NCBI GenBank assembly: GCA_030529945.1
Contig: JAUMVX010000026.1
Span: 1-33,217, forward strand
Source: Bacteroidia bacterium
Lineage (GTDB): Bacteria > Bacteroidota > Bacteroidia > Bacteroidales > UBA932
DNA length: 33,217 bases
Direction: 5' to 3'
The position numbers and the translations under genes are program-made. The notes below the pieces were generated by a model. It saw only the letters and a program-made list of their open reading frames with translations. It was not told the origin of the DNA and searched no databases. How positions within the stretch are numbered: the stretch's first letter is position 1; each line of letters starts with the position of its first letter. Shown piece by piece: positions 1-33,217 of this stretch.

Positions 1-66
1 GTCATGCCCGACCTGCTCGGGCATCTCGTTGCCATAACGGGATTGCCGGTCGGGGCCGGCAATGAC
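1..66. repeat. REPIN-like element, copy 1
   Basis: The element consists of two small hairpins. The first arm pairs ATGCCCGA with TCGGGCAT and the second pairs ATTGCCGG with CCGGCAAT. The outer ends are GTCAT and ATGAC, so the whole unit has terminal inverted repeats. The same unit recurs at 2241-2304, 6343-6402, 8723-8823, 15204-15268 and 16779-16820. It starts at the window edge, so more of the cluster may lie upstream. No protein is encoded. The resemblance to bimodular REP elements (REPINs) is by architecture, not by a database match. Confidence 0.85.
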
Positions 67-142
67 GATGGTCGGTATTGCCCGGGCATCATAATTATTT
101 GGTATTAAATTGTTTTGCATCGCGCAACTGATGTAAAAAGCG

Positions 143-173
143 TTGTCACTGTCAGGAAAAAAGCATATATTTG
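143..173 (+). promoter_or_regulatory. Bacteroidetes-type promoter for pckA
   Basis: A -33 TTG (143-145) lies 20 bases upstream of a perfect -7 box TATATTTG (166-173). The transcript would start near 178-181, giving a leader of about 170 nt before the carboxykinase start codon at 350. Confidence 0.7.
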
Positions 174-349
174 CACGATGTTTGAAATCGGAACTGCGGT
201 CGCGCCGGAGGGTATTCGAAAGAGTGCCGCGAAAGGTTGCAGAAGTGGACGGAAGGTGAAGGAGCCGGAAGTGAGGAGAAGGAAATGAGGAGCAGCGACC
301 GTCATAAAAAACGACAATTATTTATAAACTTATTTAATTGCACATAATT

Positions 350-1954
350 ATGTCAAAAATTAATTTGAGCAAGTACGGTATCAAGAGTGTGAAGGAAGTC
401 CTTTACAACCCTACCTACGAGGTCCTCTACAATGAAGAGACAAGACCGGAACTTGAAGGTTACGAGAAAGGTCAGGTGACCGAGCTCGGCGCCATCAACG
501 TAATGACAGGTGTTTTCACCGGACGTTCCCCTAAGGACAAATACATCGTTATGGACAAGAACTCGAAGGACACCGTATGGTGGAATACTCCGGAGTATCC
601 TAACGATAACCACGAGATGTCCGAGAAGGTCTGGAAGCAGGTGAAGGGCATCGCCCAGAAGGAACTCTCCGGAAAGAGACTCTTCGTGGTGGACGGCTTC
701 TGCGGCACGCACAAGGACACCCGTATGAAGGTCCGCTTCATTATGGAAGTCGCCTGGCAGGCTCATTTCGTCACCAATATGTTCATCCGTCCGAAGAACG
801 AGGCCGAGTTCGACCAGGAGCCTGATTTCGTAGTTTACTGCGCATCGAAGGCCAAGGTCGAGAACTATGCCGAGATGGGACTCCGCAGCGACACCTGCGT
901 AGCGTTCAACGTCACCAGCAAGGAGCAGGTAATCCTGAACACCTGGTACGGCGGCGAGATGAAGAAGGGTATGTTCTCTATGATGAACTACTACCTTCCT
1001 CTGAAGGGCATCGCGGCTATGCACTGCTCCGCGAACACCGATATGAACGGCGAGAACACCGCCATCTTCTTCGGTCTCTCCGGAACCGGCAAGACCACCC
1101 TTTCCACAGACCCTAAGCGTCTGCTGATCGGCGACGACGAGCACGGCTGGGACAACAAGGGCGTCTTCAACTTCGAAGGCGGCTGCTACGCCAAGGTCAT
1201 CAAGCTCGACAAGGAGTCCGAACCGGACATCTACAACGCCATCCGCCGCGACGCTCTCCTCGAGAACGTTACCGTGGACGCGAACGGCGTGATCGACTTC
1301 AACGACAAGAGCGTCACCGAGAACACCCGCGTATCTTACCCTATCTATCACATTAACAACATCGTACGTCCGGATTCTCACGGCCCTGCCGCAAAGCAGG
1401 TCATCTTCCTGTCCGCCGACGCTTTCGGAGTTCTTCCTCCGGTATCCATCCTCACCCCCGAGCAGACGAAGTACTACTTCCTCTCCGGCTTCACAGCCAA
1501 GCTCGCGGGCACGGAGCGCGGCATCACCGAGCCTACTCCGACCTTCTCCGCCTGCTTCGGCCAGGCCTTCCTCGAGCTGCATCCTACGAAGTATGCTGAG
1601 GAGCTGGTGAAGAAGATGAAGAAGAGCGGCGCCAAAGCTTATCTCGTGAACACCGGCTGGAACGGCACAGGCAAGCGCATCTCCATCCGCGACACCCGCG
1701 GCATCATCGACGCGATCCTCGACCATTCCATCGATGCGGCTCCTACGAAGCAGATCCCTTACTTCAACTTCACCGTTCCTACTTCCCTGAAGGGTGTGGA
1801 TCCTGCAATCCTCGATCCTCGCGACACTTACGCTCAGGCGTCCCAGTGGGAGGAGAAGGCGAAGGACCTCGCCGCAAGGTTCATCAAGAACTTCAAGAAG
1901 TACGAGTCTAACCGCGCCGGCAAGGCCCTCGTGAAAGCGGGTCCTCAGCTCTAG
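350..1954 (+). CDS. pckA: Phosphoenolpyruvate carboxykinase (ATP)
   Basis: This cytoplasmic enzyme interconverts oxaloacetate plus ATP and phosphoenolpyruvate plus CO2 plus ADP. In anaerobic Bacteroidales it often runs toward oxaloacetate, on the way to succinate. The 534-residue length matches the ATP-type family. Visible motifs are the kinase-1a P-loop [11 protein letters not shown], the kinase-2 motif GDDEHGW, the substrate-site stretch [15 protein letters not shown] and the C-terminal [12 protein letters not shown] start it at the ATG at 350 ([10 protein letters not shown]), because the only in-frame extension uses a TTG at 338. The gene stands alone, with its own promoter and a long leader, and ends in a convergent gap that holds a hairpin element and a terminator. 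Nothing looks degraded. Confidence 0.97.
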
Positions 1955-1985
1955 TCGCTTTCGCGACCAATATTTAGTGATGATG

Positions 1986-2123
1986 AAAAAATAACTTGGT
2001 GCTTTTGCTCGTCTTTTTGGTCTAAATTTATTTGCTCATCAGTCGTGTACCCCGGTACACTCCTTCTTCACAAACAAATTTATCCACAAAAATCCTTCAC
2101 AAAAACTTACCAAGTTATTTTTT
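1986..2123. repeat. 138-nt inverted-repeat hairpin element, copy 1
   Basis: Perfect 15-base arms (1986-2000 and 2109-2123) enclose further paired segments, including 2024-2034 with 2071-2081 (one mismatch). The apical core at 2035-2069 contains GTGTAC-CCCG-GTACAC. The same 35-base core occurs unchanged at 16947-16981 inside arms of different sequence, which are also self-complementary. The element lies in the 3' gap between pckA and the convergent S46 peptidase gene. It could be a structured 3' UTR, a non-coding RNA or a small non-autonomous mobile element. I know of no named family that it matches. Confidence 0.75.
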
Positions 2124-2138
2124 ACATGTTACTTAATC

Positions 2139-2169
2139 GGCCGGAAGGAGCTTTCGCCTCCTTCCGGCC
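2139..2169. terminator. Hairpin terminator between convergent genes
   Basis: A perfect 12-bp stem, GGCCGGAAGGAG paired with CTCCTTCCGGCC, has a 7-base loop and a weak T-rich tail on the + strand (AATTTCGTT). It lies between the ends of pckA and the convergent peptidase gene and could act in both directions. The poor U-tract keeps the confidence moderate. Confidence 0.6.
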
Positions 2170-2219
2170 AATTTCGTTCTCTCCTCCTCCTGCCCTTCTG
2201 TCCTGCCCGACCTGTGTTC

Positions 2220-2378
2220 GTCATACCCGATGTGCGTGCCGTCATGCCCGACGTGATCGGGCATCTCGTGTCTCGAAGGGATTCCCGGTCAAGCCGGGAA
2301 TGACGAAATAGGTCAAGCCAGGAATGACGTGAAAGGTCGGTGCCGGCAATGACACCAAAGGTCAGAGCCGGCAATGAC
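2220..2378. repeat. REPIN-like element, copy 2, with extra half-modules
   Basis: A complete two-hairpin unit at 2241-2304 is preceded by a partial arm at 2220-2230. Three tandem half-modules ending in GGAATGAC or GGCAATGAC follow at about 2312-2328, 2336-2352 and 2360-2377. The second hairpin of the full unit has the variant arms ATTCCCGG and CCGGGAAT. The cluster abuts the 3' end of the peptidase gene (stop at 2388). Confidence 0.85.
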
Positions 2379-2387
2379 GCAGAAACG

Positions 2388-4391
2388 TCAGTCGGCAAAG
2401 TCGAGTTCGGCCAGCAGGGAGCCCGCTCCGCAGACCTTGTCCACGACGAAGAGCAGGTACCTGATGTCTAGGCAGATGTTGCGGCAGAATTCAGGGTCGA
2501 AGGCGACATCGCTCATCGTGCCCTCCCATACGCGGTCGAAATTGATGCCGATAAGATTCCCGTCCGCATTGATCACAGGAGAACCGGAATTGCCCCCGGT
2601 AGTATGATTGTCCGCGATGAAGCAGACAGGAGTGTCTTCATAGCCGCCCGCGGCATACAGATCGCGCAGACTCTGAGGGATATTGTAATCGTAGATCTCG
2701 GGATCATCCTTCTCCATTATGCCCTTCACGGTGGAGACGTGTCTGTAGCGAATACCGTCCGCAGGCTCGTAGGCCCCGACCTTCCCGTAGGCCACGCGCA
2801 GGGTCAGATTGGCGTCAGGATAGAAGGACTTCTGCGGCTCGAACTCCATCTGCCCGCGCATATAATCGCGGTACAGCGCAGTGATTTCAGCCGACAGCCG
2901 GCTGTACTCCGGCGTGAGGACCTCATTGTAATGCTTCACGAAAGCCTTTCTGAACGCGTAGGCCGCACTCTCTTCGATGCCTTCAAGCCTGCCTCCGCAG
3001 AGTTCCTCCGAGAAGACCTCGTCCGCCCAGGCCTCGACGCTGCCCAGACGCTCCATAGACTCGAAATAGTATTCCGGCTTGAACTCATCCGCGACCCCCG
3101 TCGCATAAGCCTTCATAAGCGCGATGAAGGACTCCTTGTCGATATCGAGGTTCCAATCCTTGTAGAAATTGGCCGCAGAGGCCTCTGCGGCGGCCTCATC
3201 CTTCGCGGAAGCATAATTCGAAGCGAACTGCGGCAGTTCCACTGCCAATGCTGACTCGTAGGTGTACTCGCGGGCGAAATTGTACGGCTCGAGCAGGGTG
3301 TAGAGCGAATCGAGACACTCGAGCACACCCTCGTATTGGCCGCCTGCGGCCCAATCTCGGAACGCCTGCTCGTAGGCTTCCTTGCTCGCGACGGTGTGCA
3401 TTTTGCGGATGCCGCGCATCTCGCCCTGCCACTTTTTCCACGCGTTGGCGACGTTCGCGTTTTTCGAGGCGTACTGGATGCGCACCGCCGGGGAGGTGCT
3501 CATATATTTCTTCTGAATGTCGAGGCGAAGGGTGCGGAGGGAGATTTTCGCAGGGTCGGAAAGCTCTGATATGTAGCGCACTGCGTCTGAAGTGATGTAC
3601 TCTCTGGTGGTGCCCGGGAAACCGTAGATGAAGGTGAAGTCGCCCTCGCTCACGCCGGCGCGGGAGATCTTGAAATGCCGCTTCGGGGTGAACGGGATGT
3701 TCTCTTCGCTGTAGGGGGCCGGCTCATTGTCTTTGCCGGCATAGACGCGGAAGATGGAGAAGTCGCCGGTGTGGCGTGGCCACATCCAGTTGTCGGTGTC
3801 GCCGCCGAATTTGCCTATGGACGAAGGCGGCGCACCTACGAGACGCACGTCGGTATATACTTTATACACAAAGAGATAGTAGCGGTTGCCGTAGTAGAGG
3901 CTCTCGACGGAGGCTTTCACGCCCTTGCGGCCTTCGACTGCCCTTTCGCGTATCTGCTTTATGGCCTGCTGCGGGTCGTCGGCCGAAGTGACTTCGTCGG
4001 TGACATCCTGCATATAGTCGAGGAAGCTTACGCTGAGGCCAGGGTTCGGGAGCTCCTGCTCGCGCTTGAGGGCCCAGAAGCCGTCCTTGAGGTAGTCGTG
4101 CTCGACGCTGCTGTGCTTCTGGATGTAGCTGAAGCCGCAGTGGTGGTTCGTCAGGAGCAGTCCCTCATCAGAGACGAGTTCGCCGGTGCAGCCGCTTCCG
4201 AAGAGCACGACGGCGTCTTTGAGTGAGGCCCGGTTAATGCTGTAGATGTCTTCGTCGTTGAGCTTGAAGCCTTTCGACTGCATATCGCCGATGCGTTGGG
4301 AGATGAGCGACGGGAGCCACATCCCTTCGTCCGCGGCTGCCGGAATCGCTGTCAGAGCCACCAGAATGATGGCGGAAAGTGTTTTTTTCAT
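2388..4391 (-). CDS. Secreted S46 dipeptidyl-peptidase, DPP11-like
   Basis: A periplasmic serine exopeptidase that removes dipeptides from the N-termini of oligopeptides. The N-terminus is a signal peptide (MKKTLSAIILVALTAIPAAADEG). The trypsin-like fold shows the catalytic histidine in TNHHCGFSYIQ near residue 83 and the catalytic serine in TTGGNSGSP (Ser602). In characterised S46 enzymes the residue after Phe-Asp sets specificity: Arg in DPP11 (Asp/Glu at P1), Gly in DPP7. Here the motif is INFDRVWEG with Arg620, so I infer acidic-residue preference. The 667-residue length is slightly short for the family (about 700-720). The gene is monocistronic, and no canonical promoter is visible in its 170-base upstream gap. 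Confidence 0.93.
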   Translation of the reverse strand: MKKTLSAIILVALTAIPAAADEGMWLPSLISQRIGDMQSKGFKLNDEDIYSINRASLKDAVVLFGSGCTGELVSDEGLLLTNHHCGFSYIQKHSSVEHDYLKDGFWALKREQELPNPGLSVSFLDYMQDVTDEVTSADDPQQAIKQIRERAVEGRKGVKASVESLYYGNRYYLFVYKVYTDVRLVGAPPSSIGKFGGDTDNWMWPRHTGDFSIFRVYAGKDNEPAPYSEENIPFTPKRHFKISRAGVSEGDFTFIYGFPGTTREYITSDAVRYISELSDPAKISLRTLRLDIQKKYMSTSPAVRIQYASKNANVANAWKKWQGEMRGIRKMHTVASKEAYEQAFRDWAAGGQYEGVLECLDSLYTLLEPYNFAREYTYESALAVELPQFASNYASAKDEAAAEASAANFYKDWNLDIDKESFIALMKAYATGVADEFKPEYYFESMERLGSVEAWADEVFSEELCGGRLEGIEESAAYAFRKAFVKHYNEVLTPEYSRLSAEITALYRDYMRGQMEFEPQKSFYPDANLTLRVAYGKVGAYEPADGIRYRHVSTVKGIMEKDDPEIYDYNIPQSLRDLYAAGGYEDTPVCFIADNHTTGGNSGSPVINADGNLIGINFDRVWEGTMSDVAFDPEFCRNICLDIRYLLFVVDKVCGAGSLLAELDFAD

Positions 4392-4463
4392 ATAATGGTC
4401 AGTTTTTTCGTTTTCCTCTCGTGGTGGATGCCGCCGGTGGGTCCGGGTGCTCCGGGGGTTGTG

Positions 4464-4550
4464 CCGCTCCGGCGGGACCGTATTGGCCGCTTCGGCCGCG
4501 TCCCCTCCTTCTCCTCCTTGAGTGTCGTGTTCTCCGCTCCGGCGGGACCG
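4464..4550. repeat. Direct repeats (17 bp) upstream of the S46 peptidase
   Basis: CCGCTCCGGCGGGACCG occurs identically at 4464-4480 and 4534-4550, 70 bases apart. Each copy contains a short self-complementary part (CCGC-TCCG-GCGG). A separate GGCCG/CGGCC dyad lies between them (4488-4499). The stretch is G+C-rich and open in one minus-strand frame, but that frame is Pro/Gly/Arg low complexity and I do not call it a gene. The role is unknown and could be leader structure for the peptidase mRNA. Confidence 0.6.
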
Positions 4551-4557
4551 GGTGAGG

Positions 4558-4590
4558 ACAAAAAAAGGCGGCTAATCACTTAGTCACCTT
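4558..4590 (-). terminator. Terminator of the tRNA-Thr gene
   Basis: On the minus strand GGTGACTAA pairs with TTAGCCGCC (one G-U pair, one mismatch) around a 3-4-base loop, followed by a run of seven T. It lies 10-40 bases downstream of the tRNA 3' end and would separate the tRNA transcript from the peptidase gene. Confidence 0.7.
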
Positions 4591-4597
4591 TTCCGGG

Positions 4598-4670
4598 AGC
4601 CACTCATCAGGCTCGAACTGACGACCTGCGCGTTACGAATGCGCTGCTCTACCGACTGAGCTAAAGTGGC
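4598..4670 (-). tRNA. tRNA-Thr (anticodon CGU)
   Basis: The 73-nt cloverleaf folds fully. The acceptor pairs GCCACTT with GAGTGGC (U7-G66 wobble), the D arm is GCTC/GAGC, the anticodon loop is TTCGTAA with anticodon CGT, and the T arm is GTCAG/CTGAT around TTCGAGC. CGU reads the threonine codon ACG. The discriminator base is U and the gene is followed by CCC, so the CCA end is not encoded. The pair closing the anticodon loop is A31-C39, a mismatch. Confidence 0.95.
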
Positions 4671-4680
4671 ATTGGGGATG

Positions 4681-4711
4681 CAAATATACACATATTTTGC
4701 ATAAGAACAAG
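4681..4711 (-). promoter_or_regulatory. Promoter of tRNA-Thr
   Basis: On the minus strand CTTG (4711-4708) lies 19 bases upstream of a perfect -7 box TATATTTG (4688-4681). The start site would fall just before the tRNA 5' end at 4670, as expected for a short-leader tRNA. Confidence 0.75.
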
Positions 4712-4720
4712 TTTCTTCGC

Positions 4721-4751
4721 TTGCACTTGCGAAAAAAAGCAGGTACTTTTG
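4721..4751 (+). promoter_or_regulatory. Promoter of the flavoprotein gene
   Basis: TTG (4721-4723), a 20-base spacer and the -7 box TACTTTTG (4744-4751) fit the Bacteroidetes consensus. The predicted start near 4757 leaves a leader of about 120 nt. It is divergent from the tRNA promoter. Confidence 0.65.
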
Positions 4752-4875
4752 CGGCTCGGACGCACTATGTGATGATGAATAATCAATTCAGTTATTTTTG
4801 GTGACACGTAATTATATGTGTTATATCAGGGAATCATAAAAGTGCGCAAACGCCTTCACGAATGACAGACACGAT

Positions 4876-6354
4876 ATGAAATCCGATATTATAGTAATAG
4901 GTGCGGGAGCCTCCGGCCTTATGGCGGCATACGGCGCGGCGAAGACCCTCTCGGATGCCGGGCATCCCGTGCAGGTGAGTCTGCTGGAAAAGATGCCCCG
5001 CCCGGCGCGCAAAGTGATGATAACGGGCAAGGGCCGGTGCAATTTCACCAACGTGAAGCCTTGGAACGAGTTCTCGGAGCATATCCGCAGCAAACAGAAT
5101 TTTCTGCGCCCGGCTTACCAGAATTTAACTCCGCTCTCTCTGACGGCTTTTCTGAATGAAGCCGGTCTGGAAACGGTCGTGGAAAGGGGTGACCGCGCTT
5201 TCCCCGCTTCACACAGGGCTTCCGATGTGGTGGACGCCCTCGTGAGAATGGTCCTCGCGGTGGGGGTAAAGATTCTGACAGACTGTGAGGTGCTGTCCGT
5301 CTCGGGCTCAGCGGGTTCTGGGGGTGCGGCTGTTGTTTCAGGCTCTGCAGGTTCCGTGGGTTCAGCTGTCACCTCAGGCTCTGCGGGTTCCTTCACCATA
5401 GAATGCGCCGATGGACAGAAGCATTACTGCAGCCGGCTCATAATCGCGACCGGAGGCCTGTCCTATCCCGGGACCGGCTCCACCGGGGACGGCTACGCCT
5501 GGGCCGAGGGCTTCGGGCATAGCCTCGCGCCCCTTTTCCCATCCCTTACCGCCCTCGTTCCAAGAGGTTATAAGACAGAGCCTTACATCTCGCGTGGGAA
5601 GGGCCACATCGATAGGGGCACTCCTCTTTCGTCTCTTGGACAGGCGCTCTGCGGAGTGCAGCTTAAGAACGTGTCATTGACCTCAGTCATAGAGAATTGC
5701 GAGGCCGAATCCGAGTTCGGGGATCTGGACTTTACTGACGGCGGCATCGAAGGTCCTCTGGGCTTCCGGCTCAGCCGCAAATGCGTCAAGTCCCTGATTA
5801 ACGGCTCCCGCGTGAAACTTCGTCTCGACCTCAAGCACGGCGTGCCTGAGGACGAGCTGCGCGGCAGGGTGTCGCAGCTGTGGCGGGAGATAAAGGATGA
5901 CCCGCGCAGCAGGGGAGTGGGCGATAAGGAACTGTGCCGGATTCTGCTTGGCAAGCTGATGCCTCGCGAACTTATTCCGGGATTCCTTGCTTCTTTTCCG
6001 GACATCATAAGCGTGGAGCGTAAGGCCGGGGTGAAGGACAGGTTCGGCAAGTATTCCGTCGGGAAGGCCCGGGTTTTCGTGCATCTGACGCAGATTGCCG
6101 ACGCGCTGAAGCGCTGGGATTTCGAAATCGCGGGTTTCGTGGGGTATGAACGGGCCGTCGTCACCTCGGGTGGCGTGAAAACAGAGGAACTAACCGCCAA
6201 AACGCTTGAGTCCCGGATAGTTCCCGGGCTGTATTTCTGCGGTGAACTCGTGGACATCGATGCCGACACGGGCGGCTATAACCTCCACTGCGCTTTCTCC
6301 ACCGGGCTTCTTGCCGGTCAGTCCGCCGCCAAGTCGCTACTCTGCCGGCAGTGA
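4876..6354 (+). CDS. HI0933/BaiN-like FAD-dependent oxidoreductase
   Basis: A cytoplasmic flavoprotein of the YhiN/HI0933/BaiN family. Most members have no proven substrate; BaiN itself acts in bile-acid dehydroxylation, but that role should not be transferred here. The FAD-binding N-terminus IIVIGAGASGLMAAYG (residues 5-20), the family signature GKGRCNFTN (51-59), TGGLSYPGTGSTGDGYA and the C-terminal GLYFCGELVDIDADTGGYNLHCAFSTG are all present. At 492 residues it is longer than the usual roughly 400. Part of the excess is a Gly/Ser/Ala low-complexity insert (residues 142-172), a 12-residue repeat present about 2.6 times. The stop codon lies in the loop of a REPIN hairpin. Confidence 0.9.
   Translation: MKSDIIVIGAGASGLMAAYGAAKTLSDAGHPVQVSLLEKMPRPARKVMITGKGRCNFTNVKPWNEFSEHIRSKQNFLRPAYQNLTPLSLTAFLNEAGLETVVERGDRAFPASHRASDVVDALVRMVLAVGVKILTDCEVLSVSGSAGSGGAAVVSGSAGSVGSAVTSGSAGSFTIECADGQKHYCSRLIIATGGLSYPGTGSTGDGYAWAEGFGHSLAPLFPSLTALVPRGYKTEPYISRGKGHIDRGTPLSSLGQALCGVQLKNVSLTSVIENCEAESEFGDLDFTDGGIEGPLGFRLSRKCVKSLINGSRVKLRLDLKHGVPEDELRGRVSQLWREIKDDPRSRGVGDKELCRILLGKLMPRELIPGFLASFPDIISVERKAGVKDRFGKYSVGKARVFVHLTQIADALKRWDFEIAGFVGYERAVVTSGGVKTEELTAKTLESRIVPGLYFCGELVDIDADTGGYNLHCAFSTGLLAGQSAAKSLLCRQ
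5299..5391 (+). repeat. 36-bp in-frame tandem repeat
   Basis: About 2.6 copies of a 36-base unit encode [T/V]SGSAGS-x-G-x-A-V (residues 142-172 of the flavoprotein). The copies differ at several synonymous and a few non-synonymous positions. The repeat looks like a coding minisatellite in a surface loop between two FAD-domain strands; its length may vary between strains. Confidence 0.8.
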
Positions 6355-6420
6355 CCGGCAATCCCTTCGAAACACAAGATGCCCGAGCAGGTCGGGCATA
6401 ACGGAAGAGCAGGTCGGGGA
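6343..6420. repeat. REPIN-like element, copy 3 (inverted), overlapping a stop codon
   Basis: The unit is in reverse orientation. TGCCGG (6343-6348) pairs with CCGGCA (6355-6360), and the second hairpin GATGCCCGA-GCAGG-TCGGGCAT lies at about 6379-6400. The outer end here is CATAAC instead of CATGAC. A partial arm follows at 6407-6420. The stop codon of the flavoprotein gene (6352-6354) is in the first hairpin loop, and the convergent kbl stop is at 6434, so the repeat fills the whole gap. Confidence 0.8.
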
Positions 6421-6433
6421 GGACGGAACGCCT

Positions 6434-7624: not shown

Positions 7625-7683
7625 AGCTTTATGTGTTATTTGATTTCTGAGAAGTTATCACTTGATGTCATAACTGCCGCGTA

Positions 7684-7691
7684 CAAATATA
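7684..7691 (-). promoter_or_regulatory. -7 box of the kbl promoter
   Basis: On the minus strand TATATTTG (7691-7684) lies about 60 bases upstream of the kbl start. No convincing -33 motif at the usual distance is visible. It sits 34 bases from the divergent promoter of the dehydrogenase gene, so one regulator could affect both. Confidence 0.6.
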
Positions 7692-7699
7692 TACATTTT

Positions 7700-7732
7700 T
7701 TGCTTATGGTTTGAAAACAAATATTAACTTTG
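7700..7732 (+). promoter_or_regulatory. Promoter of the threonine dehydrogenase gene
   Basis: TTG (7700-7702) and the -7 box TAACTTTG (7725-7732) are separated by 22 bases, slightly longer than usual. The start codon follows 25 bases after the -7 box, giving a short leader. Confidence 0.6.
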
Positions 7733-7757
7733 TGCGAGAAAATGTAAGTTTAAAACG

Positions 7758-8714: not shown

Positions 8715-8722
8715 GAAATGAG

Positions 8723-8823
8723 GAGATTGCCGGTCGGGGCCGGCAATGACGGAGAAGGTCGGGGCCGGCAATGACGGCAAAGGTCACGCGCTCCGTCATG
8801 CCCGACCTGCTCGGGCATCCCGT
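8723..8823. repeat. REPIN-like modules, copy 4
   Basis: The cluster contains one ATTGCCGG/CCGGCAAT hairpin (8726-8750), a half-module ending in GGCAATGAC (8758-8775), and a GTCATGCCCG hairpin (8795-8823). The module order differs from copy 1: the two hairpin types are swapped and separated. It fills most of the gap between the dehydrogenase gene and the TetR gene and comes within 25 bases of the TetR start codon. Confidence 0.85.
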
Positions 8824-8834
8824 GCAGAGAAGAG

Positions 8835-8847
8835 ATTATACGATAAT
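8835..8847. promoter_or_regulatory. Small palindrome before the TetR start
   Basis: ATTAT-ACG-ATAAT immediately precedes the ATG of the TetR gene. An operator for autoregulation is possible, but the arms are only 5 bp and A/T-only, so chance is a fair alternative. No TAnnTTTG box is visible between the repeat cluster and the start codon. Confidence 0.3.
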
Positions 8848-13698: not shown

Positions 13699-13720
13699 TT
13701 ACTACTAAAGAAAAAAGACG

Positions 13721-20531: not shown

Positions 20532-20592
20532 TTGACCGGGCGGAATCCTCCGCCGGACACCCATATTCAGCCACTTTAAAAACCGCAAATAT

Positions 20593-23496: not shown

Positions 23497-23552
23497 ATCC
23501 GGCGGGTAAGTTATTTTTTCGGAATCACTAAGTTCAAGAAATACGATAAATC

Positions 23553-23585
23553 CCCTTTTTTCTTAAAAAATGGTATATTTGTGGA
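23553..23585 (+). promoter_or_regulatory. Promoter of the DUF4831-pepD operon
   Basis: A perfect -7 box TATATTTG (23574-23581) is preceded by TTTTTTCTTAAAAAATG and no TTG. The whole stretch matches 18813-18845 at 28 of 33 bases. The start codon follows at 23620. Confidence 0.6.
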
Positions 23586-23619
23586 CGGATGGAACAAAGG
23601 CCGTCCGCCATTTACGACG

Positions 23620-24645: not shown

Positions 24646-24652
24646 CACAGTT

Positions 24653-26131: not shown

Positions 26132-26141
26132 GTGATTAAAT

Positions 26142-27341
26142 ATGAAGAAACAGTATATCATCACGGCGGCCGCGCTCCTCTGCATCTGTGCAGCGGCTCC
26201 TGCCCAGACCAAGGCCACCATCGACTTCGATTACCAGTTCACCACCATCAAGGAGAACCCTATAACTTCCGTAAAGAATCAGGCGAACAGCAGTACCTGC
26301 TGGGCATATTCCACCCTCAGCTTCGTCGAGTCCGAAATCATACGCATAAACGGCATAAAGGACGAGGCCGCCTATCCGGACCTTTCCGAGTTCTTCGTGG
26401 TATGCCATTCATATGCTGACAGGGCCGACAAATATGTCCGTCTCGACGGCAACCTCACCTTCTCCCCGGGGTCCGAGGCTGACGATGTGCTCCACGTCAT
26501 CCGCGACTACGGTATGGTTCCGCAGAACGAGATGACCGGTATGAACTACGGCTATGACCTTCCCGCCCAGAACGAGGTGGACGCCGTGCTCAAGGCCTAC
26601 ATACAGGCAGTGGCAAAGGTCCCTAACCGCAATCGCCTCTCCACCGCCTGGAAGAGAGGTTTCCAGGCCATCCTGAACGAGTATCACGGAGCATATCCGG
26701 AAAAATTCACAGTGGACGGCGTGGAATACACTCCGGAGTCTTACAGGGATGCTCTGAAATTCAATCCTGACGATTACGTCACCCTCACTTCCTTCACTCA
26801 TCATCCGTTCTATACAAAGTTCGCCATCGAGATCTGCGACAACTGGCGCTGGGATATGGCATACAACGTACCTATAGACGAGTTTATCGAGGTTCTCGAC
26901 AACGCCATAGACAAGGGCTACACAGCGGCCTGGGGAACTGACTGCAGCGAGCCGGGCTTCACCCGCAACGGTCTGGGCCTGCTTCTGGACACCAAGGCTA
27001 TGGCGGCCGCAGGCTCCGACCAGGAGCGCTGGGTGGGCAAGTCCGAAGACGAGAAGCCTGAGCCTGTAGCTCCTATAGAGCTGGAAGGCACTCAGGAGTA
27101 CCGTCAGCAGGGCTTCGACGAGAAGACCACCACCGATGACCACGGTATGCACATCTACGGTATCGCTCAGGACCAGAACGGAAAGAAGTTCTATATGGTA
27201 AAGAATTCCTGGGGCGTGTCGAGCAAATACCACGGCATCTGGTATATCTCTGAGAATTTCGTAAGGGGAAAGAGTATGGACATCCTGGTCCACAAGGACG
27301 CTCTTCCTAAGCATATCGCCAAGAAACTCGGCATAAAGTAA
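26142..27341 (+). CDS. Exported C1-family aminopeptidase (bleomycin hydrolase/PepC type)
   Basis: A 399-residue papain-fold cysteine peptidase with a signal peptide (MKKQYIITAAALLCICAAAPAQ), so it acts outside the cytoplasm, unlike classical PepC. The catalytic triad is Cys53 in NQANSSTCWAYS, His337 in HGMHIYG and Asn355 in VKNSWG. The spacing and the motif YPDLSEFFVVCHSYADRADKYVR fit the bleomycin-hydrolase group rather than simple papain. The C-terminus KLGIK might plug the active site, as in PepC, giving aminopeptidase activity; this is inference. Its stop codon overlaps the pssA start (TAATG). Confidence 0.88.
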   Translation: MKKQYIITAAALLCICAAAPAQTKATIDFDYQFTTIKENPITSVKNQANSSTCWAYSTLSFVESEIIRINGIKDEAAYPDLSEFFVVCHSYADRADKYVRLDGNLTFSPGSEADDVLHVIRDYGMVPQNEMTGMNYGYDLPAQNEVDAVLKAYIQAVAKVPNRNRLSTAWKRGFQAILNEYHGAYPEKFTVDGVEYTPESYRDALKFNPDDYVTLTSFTHHPFYTKFAIEICDNWRWDMAYNVPIDEFIEVLDNAIDKGYTAAWGTDCSEPGFTRNGLGLLLDTKAMAAAGSDQERWVGKSEDEKPEPVAPIELEGTQEYRQQGFDEKTTTDDHGMHIYGIAQDQNGKKFYMVKNSWGVSSKYHGIWYISENFVRGKSMDILVHKDALPKHIAKKLGIK

Positions 27342-28072
27342 TGTCTTTAGTCAAGCATATTCCTAATGCTGTCACCTCCTGCAACCTGCTCTGCGGCGTT
27401 CTGGGGGTGATAGCCTCTTTTCGGGGCCGTCCGGACATCGCCTTCTCGCTGATGCTCGCGGCGTCGGTCTTCGACTTCTGCGACGGACTTGCGGCCCGTG
27501 CCCTCAAGGCATATTCGGATATCGGCAAGGAACTGGATTCGCTCTGCGATATGGTGAGCTTCGGGGTGCTGCCCTCAGTGATGATGTGCAACCACCTCTA
27601 CGCCTGCTTCGGCAATTCCTTCGTCAGTTTCATACCGCTGGTCCTCGCCGTATTCTCGGGTCTGCGTCTTGCCAAGTTCAATGTCGATGAGCGTCAGCAC
27701 AGCAGTTTCCTGGGCCTGGCGACCCCGGCGGCGGCGCTCATCTGCGCCTCGCTCTGCGCTTTCGCCTTCGAGCGGCCGGATTCCATCATCGCCCTTGCCG
27801 CAGGCGGAAGGCTTTTCCTCCCGCTGCTTTCCGTGGTGCTTTCCGCGCTGCTGGTCAGCGAGATACCTATGTTCGCGATGAAGATCGGGACAGGCGACGG
27901 CACTCCGGCATACGTCCGTGTGGAGAGGGGGCTTTTCCTCGCCGCAGCTCTGCTTGCGCTGATCTGCGCCTTGATTTTCGGCCTCCACTGGTCGTTTGTC
28001 ATCCTCGCGGCATTCATCTCCTACGTCCTCATCAATCTTATCGCCTGGCCGTTTGCGTCTCGCATACATTGA
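27341..28072 (+). CDS. pssA: CDP-diacylglycerol-serine O-phosphatidyltransferase
   Basis: An inner-membrane enzyme that makes phosphatidylserine, the precursor of phosphatidylethanolamine. The 243-residue protein carries the CDP-alcohol phosphotransferase signature DGLAARALKAYSDIGKELDSLCD, fitting D-G-x2-A-R-x8-G-x3-D-x3-D (broken here only by spacing as normally written), and about seven hydrophobic segments. The N-terminal KHIPNAVTSCNLLCGVLG is typical of the bacterial type II enzyme. Its ATG shares one base with the C1 peptidase stop. No psd gene (decarboxylase) is in the window. Confidence 0.92.
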   Translation: MSLVKHIPNAVTSCNLLCGVLGVIASFRGRPDIAFSLMLAASVFDFCDGLAARALKAYSDIGKELDSLCDMVSFGVLPSVMMCNHLYACFGNSFVSFIPLVLAVFSGLRLAKFNVDERQHSSFLGLATPAAALICASLCAFAFERPDSIIALAAGGRLFLPLLSVVLSALLVSEIPMFAMKIGTGDGTPAYVRVERGLFLAAALLALICALIFGLHWSFVILAAFISYVLINLIAWPFASRIH

Positions 28073-28085
28073 TTCAGAGTGGCTT

Positions 28086-28127
28086 ATATGCGACAGGGCG
28101 ACCGAAGACGGCCGCCCTGTCGCGTAT
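28086..28127. terminator. Hairpin between convergent genes
   Basis: GCGACAGGGCG (28090-28100) pairs perfectly with CGCCCTGTCGC (28113-28123), and four more pairs extend the base (28086-28089 with 28124-28127). It lies between the pssA and aminotransferase gene ends. There is no T run, so it may protect 3' ends rather than terminate on its own. Confidence 0.55.
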
Positions 28128-28144
28128 GGGGAGTTCCCGGAAGC

Positions 28145-29341
28145 TTATCTTTCCCGGTAAGCCTTGAGGCCGGCTTCGAGAACCTGCATAGCTTTCTCAA
28201 GCTCGGGAACTTCGAGAACGTAGGCGATGCGGATCTGCTTCAGGCCTTCGCCCGGAGTGCAGTAGAAGGAAGCCGCAGGGGTCACCATCACTGTCTGAGA
28301 ATCGAGCCTGAAATCTGTCAGCATCCAGCGTGCGAAGTCCTCGGAGCTGTCCACCGGAAGCTCGGCGATGGTATAGAACGCACCTCCCGGGACAGGGGAG
28401 AATACGCCCTCCATCCTGTTCAGAGCGGCGAGGGTGAAATCGCGTCTGCGGATATACTCCTCCCGCGTGCTGTCGAAATATGACTGAGGCGCATCGAGGG
28501 CCCCGAGAGTCACGACCTGCCCGAGCACAGGCGGACAGAGCCGGGCCTGGGCGAGCTTGGTGATGGCGGCGATGACCTCGGCGTTATGCGAAACCGTGCA
28601 GCCGATGCGCGCACCGCAGAGATTGTAGCGCTTCGACACCGAATCCACCATAATCACGTTCTGTTCGAGTCCCGGTATGTTGAGGGCCGAGAAATGCGGC
28701 TCATCGCAGTAGCAGAACTCCCTGTAAACCTCGTCCGAAATCAGGAAGAGGTCGTGCCTGCGGCAGAATTCGCCTATCCGCAGCATATCCTCGCGCGAAT
28801 AGACGACGCCGGTCGGGTTCCCGGGATTGCACAGAAGCACGGCTCTGGTGCGCGGAGTGCACACGGCCTCGAAGGCTTCGATGGAAGGAACCTTGAAACC
28901 GTCACGTATGTCGGTATGGACAGGCTTCACGATGATTCCGTTCTGGAAGGCGAAGGAAAAATAGTTCGTATAGTAAGGCTCTATAACGATGACCTCGTCG
29001 CCCGCGTCGCAGCAGGTCTGCACCGCGAAATCCACCGCCTCGCTTCCGGCCGTATTCACCAGAATCTCGTCCGTGCTGATCTGCACACCGATCTTCCGGT
29101 AGTATTTCTCCACCAGGGCGCGGCGCAGCTCGAGAGTGCCGGCAGAGTCTGAATACGGGAGATACTCCATATGGAAATTTCTGAGTGCGTCCACCGCGGA
29201 CCGGGGAGACTTTATGTCGGGAGCCCCGATGTTCAGGTGATAGACCTTGACTCCCTCGCGCTTCGCCGCATTGGCGAACGGAGTGAGCTTGCGTATGGCC
29301 GAAGCCGGAATCTGAACGGCTTTATTCGAAAGATGTGGCAT
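28145..29341 (-). CDS. Pyridoxal-phosphate aminotransferase, class I/II (AspB-like)
   Basis: A cytoplasmic fold-type I aminotransferase of 398 residues. Visible motifs are LNIGAPDIKSP near the N-terminus, NTAGSEAVDFA, the cofactor-binding stretch LLCNPGNPTGVVYSREDM, SDEVYREFCY and the PLP lysine in VDSVSKRYNLCGARIGC. The family includes aspartate, aromatic and branched-chain transaminases; this length and the NPxNPTG motif favour an aspartate-type enzyme, but substrate cannot be fixed from sequence. It is a single gene with its own -7 box, convergent with pssA and divergent from the exonuclease operon. Confidence 0.88.
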   Translation of the reverse strand: MPHLSNKAVQIPASAIRKLTPFANAAKREGVKVYHLNIGAPDIKSPRSAVDALRNFHMEYLPYSDSAGTLELRRALVEKYYRKIGVQISTDEILVNTAGSEAVDFAVQTCCDAGDEVIVIEPYYTNYFSFAFQNGIIVKPVHTDIRDGFKVPSIEAFEAVCTPRTRAVLLCNPGNPTGVVYSREDMLRIGEFCRRHDLFLISDEVYREFCYCDEPHFSALNIPGLEQNVIMVDSVSKRYNLCGARIGCTVSHNAEVIAAITKLAQARLCPPVLGQVVTLGALDAPQSYFDSTREEYIRRRDFTLAALNRMEGVFSPVPGGAFYTIAELPVDSSEDFARWMLTDFRLDSQTVMVTPAASFYCTPGEGLKQIRIAYVLEVPELEKAMQVLEAGLKAYRER

Positions 29342-29414
29342 AAGAACTAATTGTGTTTTATGTGGTTAAGCTATATTTAAATAAATCTCCAATCACTTTT
29401 GTGGATTTACCTTA

Positions 29415-29422
29415 CAAAGATA
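29415..29422 (-). promoter_or_regulatory. -7 box of the aminotransferase promoter
   Basis: On the minus strand TATCTTTG (29422-29415) matches TAnnTTTG and lies about 75 bases before the start codon. No TTG is evident upstream. Confidence 0.55.
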
Positions 29423-29435
29423 TGCTCTTTTTTCG

Positions 29436-29443
29436 TATTTTTG
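29436..29443 (+). promoter_or_regulatory. -7 box of the exonuclease-operon promoter
   Basis: TATTTTTG matches TAnnTTTG on the + strand and would give a leader of about 130 nt. It is only 13 bases from the divergent aminotransferase -7 box, so the two promoters face away from each other and nearly abut. Confidence 0.55.
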
Positions 29444-29578
29444 TAGGATTTGTAACGTGTATTCGCGCAGATTCTGCCTCGCGCTCCGCGCCTTCACGCA
29501 AGAAATCACAGGTTATTCGGAGCGATTTCAGCCGGTGCGGCCGGTGCGGAAGTCCCCTCAGTGATACAGAGAAACAGG

Positions 29579-30481
29579 ATGTACAGAATCAGCATCTCTC
29601 CGGAAGAGATAGAGAAATACGAACTCGCGGCTTTCCCGGGAGAGATACAGGTCATAGACAGCGAAGACGCTGCCTTCCGCTCCGCGATTTCCTTTCTGCG
29701 GCGGCAGAAGGTTCTGGGCTTCGACACCGAGACCCGTCCCGTCTTCTCGCCCGACCAGCCTCGCCACAGCGTCGCACTTCTCCAGCTTTCAGGCCCCGGA
29801 AAGGCCTTCCTATTCCGTGTGCAGAAGCTCGGGCTCCCTCAGAGTCTGCGCGACATCCTTTCGAACGGCGACATACTCAAGATAGGCGCGGCCGTGGGCG
29901 ACGATGTCCGCGGCCTGCAGAGGCTGCACGATTTCGAGGCCGGGGGCTTCGTGGACCTGCAGAAGATGGTCTGGCAGTACGGCATCCGCGACAAGAGCGT
30001 GAAGAAAATGAGCGCCATCATCCTGCGCGTGCGCATTTCCAAGACCCAGCAGCTCTCGAACTGGGAGGCCGAGGTCCTTTCCGAGCCGCAGTGCCGCTAT
30101 GCCGCGACCGACGCGTGGGTCTGCCGCGAGATGTACTTCCGCCTCAAGCGCTCCAAACAGCATCCGCTGACCCCCGAGCAGCTCAATCCTCAGCAGAAGG
30201 CCGCTCCGGCCGCTGACGCGTCCGGCCCGTCCAATTCTTCCACTCCGTCCGCCCAGGGCACTTCCGGCCGCAAGCGTCACAGAGGGGGACGGCGCCACCG
30301 CAAGAAGGCGGCTCTCAAGGGTTCCGGACAGACAGCCGCTCCGGCCGCTGCCGCGTCCAATCCTTCCACTCCGTCCGCCCCGGGCACTTCCGGCCGCAAA
30401 CGCCGCAGAGGGGGCCGACACAGACACAGACGTCGCCGCAAGACTAAAACAACTTCTGGCAATGATCGGAATATATCTTAA
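29579..30481 (+). CDS. 3'-5' exonuclease, DEDD (RNase D-like) family, with basic tail
   Basis: A cytoplasmic 300-residue protein. The exonuclease domain (about residues 20-205) shows ExoI GFDTETRP, ExoII around KIGAAVGDDVRGLQRL and ExoIII CRYAATDAWVCREMY, the YxxxD pattern of DEDDy nucleases. The tail after about residue 205 is low-complexity: a 45-residue unit rich in Ala, Pro and Ser followed by an Arg/Lys/His block, then a second imperfect copy. Such tails probably bind RNA or DNA. I start at the ATG at 29579; an upstream GTG at 29561 is possible. It overlaps the next gene by 20 bases. Confidence 0.85.
   Translation: MYRISISPEEIEKYELAAFPGEIQVIDSEDAAFRSAISFLRRQKVLGFDTETRPVFSPDQPRHSVALLQLSGPGKAFLFRVQKLGLPQSLRDILSNGDILKIGAAVGDDVRGLQRLHDFEAGGFVDLQKMVWQYGIRDKSVKKMSAIILRVRISKTQQLSNWEAEVLSEPQCRYAATDAWVCREMYFRLKRSKQHPLTPEQLNPQQKAAPAADASGPSNSSTPSAQGTSGRKRHRGGRRHRKKAALKGSGQTAAPAAAASNPSTPSAPGTSGRKRRRGGRHRHRRRRKTKTTSGNDRNIS
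30200..30430 (+). repeat. 135-bp in-frame duplication in the exonuclease tail
   Basis: The units begin at 30200 and 30335, both with GCCGCTCCGGCCGCTG, exactly 135 bases (45 codons) apart. Each encodes APAA...STPSA-x-GTSGRKR followed by a basic Gly/Arg/His run. The second unit has a 3-codon deletion in the Pro/Ser part and diverges at the end. Confidence 0.8.
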
Positions 30482-31652
30482 AAGAGGCAGGGACGAGTCC
30501 CTGAGGCGCTTTCACCCCTGGGTGTTCTCCGGTGCCGTGGCTCGGACAGCAGGCTCTCCCGCAGAGGGGGACCTCGTGGAAGTGTATTCAGCCGAGGGCG
30601 AATTCCTGGCTGTTGGACACTATCAGGTGGGCTCCATCGCTGTGAGGATACTCTCCTTCGACCGTTCGGCCCTCGACCCCGACTTTTTCGTCCGGATGAT
30701 TTCCCGTGCCTCGGACGTGCGCCGCGCCGCCGGGCTTCCTTCCGCCGAGACGGACTGCTTCAGACTTGTACACGGAGAAGGAGACAGTCTCCCCGGTCTC
30801 ATAATAGACTGGTACGGAGGCGTATGCGTGATGCAGGCCCATTCCGTCGGGATGTTCAGGGCCAGAAAACAGATTTGCGCCGCCCTTCAGTCCATATTCG
30901 CCGACTCGCTCAAGGCTGTTTACGACAAGAGTTCTGGTACGGCCCCATTCAAGGCCGGCCTGGAGCTTGTGGACGGCTATCTGTATAAGTCCGAGGGCTT
31001 TACGGACGATGAGCAGACGGTGATGGAAAACGGTCACCGCTTCATCGTGGACTGGACGGGAGGCCAGAAGACAGGCTTCTTCCTCGACCAGAGGGAGAAC
31101 CGGGCATCGGTCGGGCGCCTGAGCGCCGGCCGCAGGGTTCTGAACCTCTTCTGCTACACGGGCGGCTTCTCGATATACGCATTGGCCGCGGGCGCGGCAT
31201 TCGTGGACTCGGTGGACAGCAGCGCTCGCGCGATGGATATGCTGGCCAGGAACGTGGAGCTGAACGGTTTTGACGCTTCGCGTCACGAGGAGCATTGCGC
31301 GGACGCGATAGAGTATCTGAAGAATTGTCCGAAAGGACGTTATGACCTCATCATCGTGGACCCGCCGGCTTTCGCGAAGCATCGGGGTGCGCTGCAGAAC
31401 GCGCTGCGCGCCTACCGGAGGCTGAACGCCTGCGCGATAGACGCCGTGGCTCCGGGCGGGCTGGTCTTCACCTATTCCTGCTCGCAGGTGGTGGACAGGG
31501 ACACTTTCGCGATGACCGTGTTTTCCGCTGCGGCTCAGACCGGACGCAAGGTGCGCATACTGGACCGGCTGAACCAGCCGGCAGATCATTGCGTGAATAT
31601 ATATCATCCTGAGGGCGAGTATCTTAAGGGTCTGCTCCTCTATGTAGAATAA
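30462..31652 (+). CDS. Class I SAM-dependent 23S rRNA methyltransferase, RlmI-like
   Basis: A cytoplasmic RNA methyltransferase of 396 residues. An N-terminal PUA-like domain (GIYLKRGRDESLRRFHPWVFSGAV) precedes the catalytic domain, with LVHGEGDSLPGLIIDWYG, KTGFFLDQRENR, the SAM-binding VLNLFCYTGGFSIYA, IIVDPPAFAKHRG and FTYSCSQ containing the probable catalytic cysteine. RlmI makes m5C1962 in E. coli 23S rRNA; the specific target here is inferred from family. It overlaps the exonuclease gene, suggesting a shared role in RNA metabolism. Confidence 0.88.
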   Translation: MIGIYLKRGRDESLRRFHPWVFSGAVARTAGSPAEGDLVEVYSAEGEFLAVGHYQVGSIAVRILSFDRSALDPDFFVRMISRASDVRRAAGLPSAETDCFRLVHGEGDSLPGLIIDWYGGVCVMQAHSVGMFRARKQICAALQSIFADSLKAVYDKSSGTAPFKAGLELVDGYLYKSEGFTDDEQTVMENGHRFIVDWTGGQKTGFFLDQRENRASVGRLSAGRRVLNLFCYTGGFSIYALAAGAAFVDSVDSSARAMDMLARNVELNGFDASRHEEHCADAIEYLKNCPKGRYDLIIVDPPAFAKHRGALQNALRAYRRLNACAIDAVAPGGLVFTYSCSQVVDRDTFAMTVFSAAAQTGRKVRILDRLNQPADHCVNIYHPEGEYLKGLLLYVE

Positions 31653-31657
31653 TTCTT

Positions 31658-32113
31658 ATGTACAGTATCAAACTCGAACTTCCCGCAGCCTGGAAGAGCA
31701 AGCGGGAGACCTTGGACGGGGGAGTGGCGCATTTCGAGGCCTTTCTGGCGAATGACCGTCTGCAGACCGATGACGCGGAGATAGATGTCTGCGTCGGGCC
31801 GATGCCGCCCGAGACTACGGCTCAGGACGAGGCTATGGCGAATTACGTGGAGATTGTTGGCTTCGACGACGATGACCCGGAGGATATGGATCCGCTGACC
31901 GAGTGGCCGTTCCAGAACCGCAAGGCCTATGGTTTCGAGGCTCTCTGCGAGGATGATTCGCCTATGCGGGTGATGTGCGTGGAGATCCGCTCGGGAGTGC
32001 TGGTCGTGATGACTCTGATAGGGCGTACCGACAGGATTCTGGAGGACCTGGTGACTCTGGTGGAGAAGAAGCTGCGTGTGGGGAAACCTGCGGAGGGAGG
32101 GGAGTCGATATAG
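31658..32113 (+). CDS. Unrecognised acidic protein
   Basis: A 151-residue protein without a signal peptide or membrane segment. It is strongly acidic (for example VGFDDDDPEDMDPLTEW) with an alternating strand/helix pattern. The segment WPFQNRKAYGFEALCEDDSPMRVMCVEIRSGVLVVMTLIG looks like an antiparallel-sheet core. I do not recognise a family. It lies 5 bases after the RlmI-like gene and 55 before menG, so it is probably in the same operon. The frame is consistent with its neighbours' codon use, supporting a real gene. Confidence 0.8.
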   Translation: MYSIKLELPAAWKSKRETLDGGVAHFEAFLANDRLQTDDAEIDVCVGPMPPETTAQDEAMANYVEIVGFDDDDPEDMDPLTEWPFQNRKAYGFEALCEDDSPMRVMCVEIRSGVLVVMTLIGRTDRILEDLVTLVEKKLRVGKPAEGGESI

Positions 32114-32168
32114 TGATTCCGTAAGCGGACAATAACTTTTCCATCATCCCGGAACAGCTTTCAGACCT

Positions 32169-32903
32169 ATGCCGGATAAAGAAAAAATACGCGGTCTTTT
32201 CGATGACATCGCGCATAATTACGATGCGTTCAACCATCTTTCCTCTTTCGGCTCCGACCGCTGCTGGCGACGCCGGGCGGTGAGGCATATCGCCGATGAA
32301 CGGCGGGCTTTGAGGGTGCTGGACGTCGCTACGGGGACGGCTGATTTCGCGCTTTCCATTGCTTCGAAGCTATCCCCGGGTTCGAACGTGGTCGGGGCGG
32401 ACCTTTCCGAGGGGATGCTCGAAATAGGCCGTGCGAAAGTCGCGAAGGCGGGGTATGATGACGGGATTGGACGCGACAGCGGCCGCAGAGATGTCGGTAT
32501 CCGGCTCATTCAGGCTGATGTGGAGGCTCTGCCTTTCGCCGACGGGAGTTTCGACAGGGTGAGCGTGGCTTTCGGAGTGCGCAATTTCGAGAATCTCGAC
32601 TGCGGGCTTTCCGAGATGTGCCGGGTGCTGCGCAAGGGAGGACGGCTGGTGATTCTGGAACTCTCGTACCCGGACAGCGCTTTTCTGCTCGCGTGCTACA
32701 AGTTCTACGCTTTTACCCTGCTGCCCTGTCTGGGCAAGCTTCTGACGGGGAATCGGGCTGCGTACCGCTACCTTCCTGCCTCGATTATGAATTTCCCGAA
32801 GCCGCCTCAGTTCATTCCTCGCCTGCTCGCGGCGGGCTTCACCTCCGTGCGCGCCCGAAGCTTTACTTTCGGAGTATGTAGGATGTATGTAGCTGAGAAA
32901 TAG
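32169..32903 (+). CDS. menG: Demethylmenaquinone methyltransferase
   Basis: A cytoplasmic SAM-dependent methyltransferase of 244 residues (UbiE/MenG family), which performs the final C-methylation to menaquinone. Motifs are FDDIAHNYDAFNHLSSFG, SAM motif I LDVATGTADFAL, GADLSEGMLEIGRAK, then ADVEALPFADGSFDRVSVAFGVRNFEN, all diagnostic for UbiE/COQ5. Bacteroidales make menaquinone and not ubiquinone, so the MenG activity is the sensible one. It is the last gene of the exonuclease operon and converges with the partial gene at the window end. Confidence 0.94.
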   Translation: MPDKEKIRGLFDDIAHNYDAFNHLSSFGSDRCWRRRAVRHIADERRALRVLDVATGTADFALSIASKLSPGSNVVGADLSEGMLEIGRAKVAKAGYDDGIGRDSGRRDVGIRLIQADVEALPFADGSFDRVSVAFGVRNFENLDCGLSEMCRVLRKGGRLVILELSYPDSAFLLACYKFYAFTLLPCLGKLLTGNRAAYRYLPASIMNFPKPPQFIPRLLAAGFTSVRARSFTFGVCRMYVAEK

Positions 32904-32975
32904 AACTTTATTAATCCTGTCACTTTACCGCACCGTCAGGCTTTCCTATGATTTCTTTCATCCTCAGTCATCGTG

Positions 32976-33217
32976 TTATTTCTCCTGCCAAAGCCAGTCG
33001 TCAGCGGCTCTGTCGGAAGAGGATTTGTGGTGTTTGCCGATGTGGTGACCCAGTAAACCGGCGCCGAATATAAAGCCGGCAGTTTTCGCCGCTTCGTCAG
33101 AGTCGCCCCTGTCGGCGGGTAGGGGATAATCATTGTTCGGGTCATATGGCTTGTCGGCTGATTTTAACCCACATTGCAGCGCATAAAGCGTTAACCACCT
33201 GATTTTGAGGGTTGGCC
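32976..33217 (-). CDS. 3' fragment of an unrecognised gene (runs off the window)
   Basis: One minus-strand frame stays open from the window edge to TAA at 32978-32976, giving 79 residues with no start codon needed. Its end reads KTAGFIFGAGLLGHHIGKHHKSSS and DDWLWQEK. The Gly-rich hydrophobic run could be a membrane or glycine-zipper segment. An alternative 69-residue frame on the same strand (33145-32936) begins with an ATG but has a less protein-like composition. I prefer the open frame, with moderate confidence; no function is assigned. Base composition is more A+T-rich than the menG side. Confidence 0.5.
   Translation of the reverse strand, partial: PTLKIRWLTLYALQCGLKSADKPYDPNNDYPLPADRGDSDEAAKTAGFIFGAGLLGHHIGKHHKSSSDRAADDWLWQEK

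Follow-up and report, generated by a model that had tools for sequence, protein, structure and literature searches.

The closest described relatives of the system discussed here are NlaIII of Neisseria lactamica and iceA1/hpyIM of Helicobacter pylori, and in both of them an ICEA-family endonuclease adjoins an adenine methyltransferase. iceA1/hpyIM is described as an NlaIII-like pair, with most copies of iceA1 in H. pylori disabled by mutation (PMC13340068). UpaP162 of Ureaplasma parvum is also a CATG-cutting Type II system, reportedly without homology to known enzymes (PMC6191088). Genomes are known to avoid the sites of orthodox Type II restriction-modification (R-M) systems, also as a trace of systems since lost, and the same study links avoidance to the lifespan of the system (Rusinov et al. 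2015, PMC4687349). Here we discuss a stretch of 33,217 nucleotides (the window; contig JAUMVX010000026.1, assembly GCA_030529945.1) from a Bacteroidales genome of 2.28 Mb, labelled G000 below, in which the word CATG is nearly missing, and a putative NlaIII-type locus of the same genome. In our opinion the CATG gap is quite probably the genome-wide footprint of this NlaIII-type Type II R-M system encoded in G000.

Extent of the CATG gap

The window contains eight CATG, at 3, 2125, 2243, 8797, 15206, 15278, 15299 and 16815. These are exactly the positions listed in an earlier reading made from the letters alone (the sequence-only reading), which expected on the order of 120 sites; a maximal-order Markov model gives 131.1 (observed/expected 0.061). 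Fourteen genes of the window match a protein family; they span 338..31652 and have no CATG at all, against 93.5 +/- 6.1 in 200 synonymous-codon shuffles, of which the lowest had 75. An automatic list of 20 open reading frames (ORFs) likewise gives 0 against 110.4 +/- 6.8, but this list is rougher and faulty (it omits two real genes and includes no fewer than two false ORFs), and we prefer the 14-gene test. That no coding gene contains CATG therefore holds for the family-supported genes, with a reservation for the site at 8797, which falls inside ORF 8746-9486 if its first ATG is the start. In all likelihood this site precedes the start codon actually used, because the domain, which is regulator-like, starts only behind another ATG, near 8847. 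The first 33 codons of this regulator-like ORF cross a copy of a REP-like repeat.

Outside the window we sampled 39 stretches with 623,882 letters (2,893 of them from one masked contig, L035). In all, the depletion is seen directly in 29% of the genome. The sample has 66 CATG where 2,486 are expected, a ratio of 0.027, so that about 97% of the expected words are missing. In a rough list of 376 ORFs from 657,099 letters, window included, there are 33 CATG against 1,978 after codon shuffling (ratio 0.017). Hence the avoidance is upheld as genome-wide in the sampled stretches under the Markov and the codon-shuffled null alike. In a pool of depleted genomes to which G000 contributes the larger part, each of the 16 NCATGN contexts has fallen to 0.05-0.15 of its level in non-depleted ones, and therefore the target is four bases long. 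The same loss is visible site by site: in 16 alignments with 13.4 kb, which are partly non-independent, only 1 of 67 CATG sites of non-depleted congeners is kept in the aligned G000 orthologues, against 18-61% for nine control words.

The further claims that other palindromes are common and that the avoidance is specific to CATG can be retained only in part. CCGG, GGCC, TCGA and GCGC indeed have ratios near 1. However, CTAG, which the sequence-only reading had missed, is as depleted as CATG (2 vs 33.9 expected in the window, 35 vs 763.5 in the genome sample, ratio 0.046), and GATC, which it had listed among the common words, reaches only about half of its expectation (0.46 in the window, 0.44 in the sample). 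GTAC depends on the measure, with 0.91 in the sample by the Markov model and 0.61-0.67 by codon shuffling. Shuffling the codons of the same 14 genes gives, as observed against expected, 40 vs 65.6 for GTAC, 49 vs 96.6 for GATC, 2 vs 13.9 for CTAG, 127 vs 127.3 for TCGA and 163 vs 147.3 for CCGG.

The locus on contig C26

The sequence-only reading had suspected an R-M system behind the gap, and candidate genes for one were found in the genome, namely an ICEA endonuclease fragment and an overlapping D12 adenine methyltransferase gene. The sole match of the genome to ICEA (PF05315, the NlaIII endonuclease family) lies at a contig end (G000:C26:13875-14204, E-value 1.3e-52) and covers profile positions 113-218 of 218, that is, the C-terminal half only. 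At the same threshold there was no match in 14 control genomes, and at E-values up to 10 Bacillus subtilis alone gave one, below the curated cut-off. In L030, which is from C26, both genes are on the minus strand: the endonuclease fragment at 9861-10247, running off the contig end, and the methyltransferase gene (PF02086, 334 amino acids) at 8860-9864. The stop codon of the former overlaps the start of the latter, and this gene order is seen directly. The methyltransferase frame is open, matches PF02086 with an E-value of 1.1e-49 and the PADLOC Type II methyltransferase model PDLC03257 with 4.1e-130, and contains the motifs DPPY and FAGTG. Of 11 matching phage records, with 35-45% identity to it, 5 are annotated as 'ulcer associated adenine specific DNA' methyltransferase, which we take to be hpyIM. 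Sequence searches of PDB returned nothing for an endonuclease relative (E-values up to 1) or for the methyltransferase (up to 0.01). The available 10.2 kb of C26 have 0 CATG against 36 expected, which fits with this contig belonging to G000. To judge from its family and from the depletion itself, the predicted methyltransferase would recognise CATG and methylate its adenine at N6 (m6A), and the enzyme pair as a whole may be expected to read CATG.

In this assembly the endonuclease gene is broken. Its homology starts with a conserved Asp-His, and the 45 bases before the codons of this pair are the end of a multicopy repeat. This repeat terminus is shared by six contig ends, three for each of two variants, and all read TGTTGATTGCCACCC inwards; since L037, L044 and L284 give weaker matches, the copy number is uncertain. 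The repeat looks like the two ends of a candidate insertion sequence present in several copies, possibly an IS21-like one. At such a place a break in the assembly looks the same as a break in every cell. As no complete, uninterrupted endonuclease gene was found, the locus is a degraded NlaIII-type member, with an unusually deep site footprint.

We propose the following course of events. An active endonuclease would have cut any CATG that escaped methylation, and selection would have favoured lineages in which a synonymous or neutral neighbour had taken the place of CATG, until about 97% of the sites were gone. The NlaIII-type system would in this way have caused the depletion and would later have lost its nuclease, which appears to be inactive now. 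This loss seems to be recent, because CATG has not re-accumulated. REP-like repeats would carry CATG because of a recent spread in this lineage. Most likely, then, G000 now has a methyltransferase without its partner, and the purge left by the recently lost nuclease is still in place.

Like most cases of H. pylori iceA1/hpyIM (PMC13340068), our locus has a broken endonuclease beside an open methyltransferase. It differs from both NlaIII and iceA1/hpyIM in its Bacteroidales host and in the position of its break, where the conserved Asp-His meets the terminus of a multicopy repeat. The site depletion in G000 is about 97%. The cases of Rusinov et al. (PMC4687349) are similar in that a Type II palindrome is strongly under-represented and in that relatives lacking the system avoid it too; in G000 we find both the under-represented palindrome and the genes, a partial one for the endonuclease and one for the methyltransferase. 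Their threshold for avoidance is 0.78, compared with 0.027 here, the two ratios being computed differently. Also unlike their cases, the genus of G000 has the trait switched on and off between species.

Relatives, carriers and other explanations

Of sixty congeners sampled, 52 yielded 9 kb of letters or more and were scored (G003, G021, G036, G046, G048, G054, G056 and G059 were left out). The median CATG ratio is 0.84; it exceeds 0.6 in 40 of the 52, is at or below 0.25 in 10, and lies between in two, G010 (0.43) and G038 (0.46), of which the latter is sister to G037 with 1.07. CATG is thus bimodal between species, and CTAG is low to a varying degree in nearly all congeners (0 to 0.78). G000 has the lowest ratio sampled, 0.027, followed by G035 with 0.033 (20 kb). 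Taken together, the 12 depleted congeners and G000 make up about a quarter of the species measured, mostly without a recognisable CATG methyltransferase. The dispersion of CATG within depleted congeners offered too little data to tell active systems from relaxing ones.

GATC and CTAG are both lower in the CATG-depleted congeners than in the others (medians 0.43 vs 0.71, p 0.0005, and 0.09 vs 0.20, p 0.009). A D12 methyltransferase has no match in 10 of the 12 CATG-depleted congeners. In the remaining two, G031 and G038, such a gene adjoins one for an N6_N4 methyltransferase, and the same arrangement occurs in the non-depleted G013 and G016. These four pairs we infer to be GATC systems. An N6_N4 methyltransferase like those beside these Dam-like D12 genes is found in G000 as well (G000:C16:14930-15574, L265), possibly a remnant of a DpnII-like GATC system, which would fit the GATC ratio of 0.44. 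G043 has a GATC ratio of 0.065, with no D12 or N6_N4 match.

Relatives of the methyltransferase were matched in 164 named loci. The best 80 were taken to represent its carriers elsewhere; 78 of these could be scored and two had too few expected sites. Among these best 80, 27 loci have an endonuclease match, and the 13 endonuclease frames that were read are all open over 205-237 amino acids. A CATG ratio at or below 0.25 is found in 14 of the 20 carriers taken as Bacteroidales by title and in 10 of the 52 congeners (Mann-Whitney p 4e-7, a test with no phylogenetic correction). Carriage seems to be associated with depletion near home without predicting depletion everywhere. The latter is expected if many copies are recent, given the link between avoidance and system lifespan mentioned at the outset.

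Some further observations concern the carriers. The methyltransferase relatives of L073, L116, L118 and L119 are preceded by a different ORF, of 288-424 amino acids, and in L073, L118 and L119 there is also a preceding ORF of 259-284 amino acids that shares NERDKSGKH.N.YHGNF.PQIPNQLI; these ORFs may represent a different family of endonucleases together with a further methylase. A search of plasmids gave one partial endonuclease match, at 39%. An IMG/VR contig of 527 kb (L343) encodes a methyltransferase relative with 56% identity.

Several observations weigh against the NlaIII-type locus as the source of the gap. The endonuclease is incomplete, and its N-terminal half was absent from searches of the genome with the Pfam profile and with a full-length relative at E-values up to 10. 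None of the NCBIfam models reached its cut-off for either the methyltransferase or the endonuclease, and no PADLOC model matched the endonuclease. CTAG is as depleted as CATG, and no CTAG system was identified. Twelve of the 52 congeners are depleted without a detected NlaIII-type gene, so the locus as we see it is not required. Finally, the ratio is at or below 0.25 in only 25 of the 78 scored carriers, 11 of the 27 with an ICEA match and 14 of the 51 without one.

There is another reading that is compatible with ours rather than opposed to it, and to which we give somewhat less than an even chance: the depleted congeners, and partly G000 itself, would show traces of NlaIII-type systems that were repeatedly gained and lost, none of them active now. 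The truncated endonuclease of G000 points this way, as do the intermediate ratios of G010 and G038, the latter beside its non-depleted sister G037. So does L072, which carries the methyltransferase and has 0 CATG where 60 are expected, with no ICEA match within its 13-kb locus; it is possible that this is a second solitary methyltransferase in a purged genome. There is also precedent, for Rusinov et al. saw underrepresentation in 43.3% of 1,930 cases where the system is present only in other strains of the species (PMC4687349). On the other hand, ratios of 0.03-0.2 should not persist long after a loss, and the depleted species in our PEPCK tree are only 80-91% identical to G000 in this protein.

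We think it unlikely, while still deserving attention, that a different CATG-targeting system, common in the genus and either mobile or non-homologous, produced the gap and that the NlaIII-type locus came late or is coincidental. The depleted congeners, 10 with ratios at or below 0.25 and two between 0.25 and 0.6, are scattered on the PEPCK tree. Among 101 genomes ICEA was found in G000 only, with no match in its 100 relatives. Methyltransferase matches occur in 8 of the 101, the strong one in G000 only; the other seven are distant, one of them partial and six alignable over most of the protein, at 26-33% identity. None of the 12 depleted congeners has an ICEA or NlaIII-type methyltransferase match. 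Nor does any of the families PF02086, PF01555 and PF07669 (26 genomes each) or PF00145 (53 genomes) separate depleted from non-depleted genomes. The depleted genomes are metagenome-assembled genomes (MAGs) and 63-97% complete; absence from one of them is weak evidence, while absence from all 12 is not easily due to chance. A non-homologous CATG system is moreover on record in Ureaplasma, namely UpaP162 (PMC6191088). Against all this, the lowest ratio belongs to the very genome in which NlaIII-type genes occur, and our searches turned up no gene that could stand for another system. Moreover, the congener assemblies have gaps, and systems that were lost are known to leave traces (PMC4687349). 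It seems to us a minority prospect that a hidden CATG system, highly mobile and usually outside MAGs or else non-homologous, moves through the genus and that CATG was purged several times over.

The PEPCK tree has 30 rows, eight of them depleted (seven congeners and G000). The depletion label needs 8 changes on it, a number that was matched or undercut in 500 of 500 shuffles, and the well-supported branches alone force 3 changes. A single clade for all depleted species, which we considered, is not supported by this tree of one gene and 30 rows, whose bootstrap was not settled. In a number of congeners the match to the PEPCK gene (window 338-1954) is split into at least two pieces, sometimes over different contigs, with six pieces in G005; these fragmented matches may come from assembly breaks or from intervening elements.

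The sequence-only reading had left a choice between an R-M system and mutational loss after C5 methylation. The former is supported by the genes described above, and loss of CATG by deamination of 5-methylcytosine is in our opinion improbable. At the 67 orthologous sites CATG was replaced by TATG (22), CATA (9), GATG (8), CATC (6), AATG (5), CACG (4) and others. The 31 of 67 changes to TATG or CATA are what deamination would give, but a C-to-T change before ATG is also a synonymous escape, which fits their share, and at least 19 of the 67 are outer-base transversions (GATG, CATC, AATG), which argue against pure cytosine deamination. G000 does have 11 PF00145 (C5 methylase) matches in about 10 genes, on C34, C50 (3), C76 (2), C46, C49, C90 and C4, while 42 of the 53 genomes searched have none, and some C5 contribution to the loss is conceivable. 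However, G018 is the only depleted congener of the 12 with a C5 methylase match (one, in two stretches), and the linked methyltransferase of G000 is of the adenine class.

A generic dinucleotide or codon bias, or an avoidance of all S-W-W-S palindromes, can draw on the low CTAG and GATC, both lower in the CATG-depleted congeners, and on GTAC under codon shuffling, but GTAC is nearly normal by the Markov measure, and as the main cause this explanation, to which we give next to no credence, is refuted by the retention at orthologous sites, by the 40 congeners with ratios above 0.6 and by the shuffled codons, with 0 CATG of 93.5.

Surviving sites and biological meaning

Seven of the eight CATG of the window lie within the repeat tip GTCATGCCCG, and thus they do sit at the ends of REPIN-like repeats, as had been noticed from the sequence. 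Copies on the plus strand are at 1..29 (CATG at 3), 2241..2269 (2243), 8795..8823 (8797), 15204..15232 (15206) and 15297..15325 (15299), and a tip alone is at 15276..15285, also on the plus strand (15278). A reverse copy on the minus strand, at 16792..16820 (CATG at 16815), pairs with 1-29. The sole CATG of the window outside GTCATGCCCG, at 2125..2128, is intergenic and belongs to a two-copy repeat of 122 nt (2012-2133). Also in the window, at 20593-23496, is a gene for a protein of 967 amino acids with a Schlafen AlbA_2 domain.

The repeats are short, palindromic, multi-copy and mostly intergenic; we call them REP-like, after REPIN/REP, by resemblance only. Exact GTCATGCCCG tips number 111 in the 2.28 Mb, compared with 4 for the reversed control. 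Among the 34 tips within the genome sample, CATG is kept in 21 of 24 close full-length copies, and in the congener stretches the 10-mer occurs once each in 5 of the 52. Of the two possibilities raised earlier, that the survivors are recent or protected, this favours the first: the repeats probably keep CATG as a young expansion in the lineage, and their retention would need no protection beyond methylation. An impression, taken from bare 10-mer counts, that mutations in the tips are confined to CATG was rejected, since the outside variants that retain CATG had been suppressed as background.

The sample has 40 CATG outside the repeats. The 39 of them that fall in 124 five-kb bins are clustered (variance/mean 1.67, p 0.0002), and of the six clustered regions three were scanned; these contain two C5 methylases in tandem, genes for helicase and FtsK/SpoIIIE proteins, and a pair resembling SusC/SusD. 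Such CATG-bearing regions look like recent arrivals. On C50, a CATG-bearing stretch has the two tandem C5 methylases, a protein with a NO VEIN domain at its C-terminus and an AAA_5 ATPase.

A literature search, conducted largely without full texts, found no report specific to CATG avoidance in Bacteroidales or in MAGs. Restriction-site avoidance is seen here in an extreme form, with 97% of a four-base word purged. Depleted congeners in which no enzyme is visible may point the way to missing systems, and a genus in which the trait is on and off in near relatives is a natural series for timing the loss of sites under restriction and their regain afterwards. An open methyltransferase, a nuclease cut short and a purged genome, taken together, may show an R-M system just after the loss of its nuclease.

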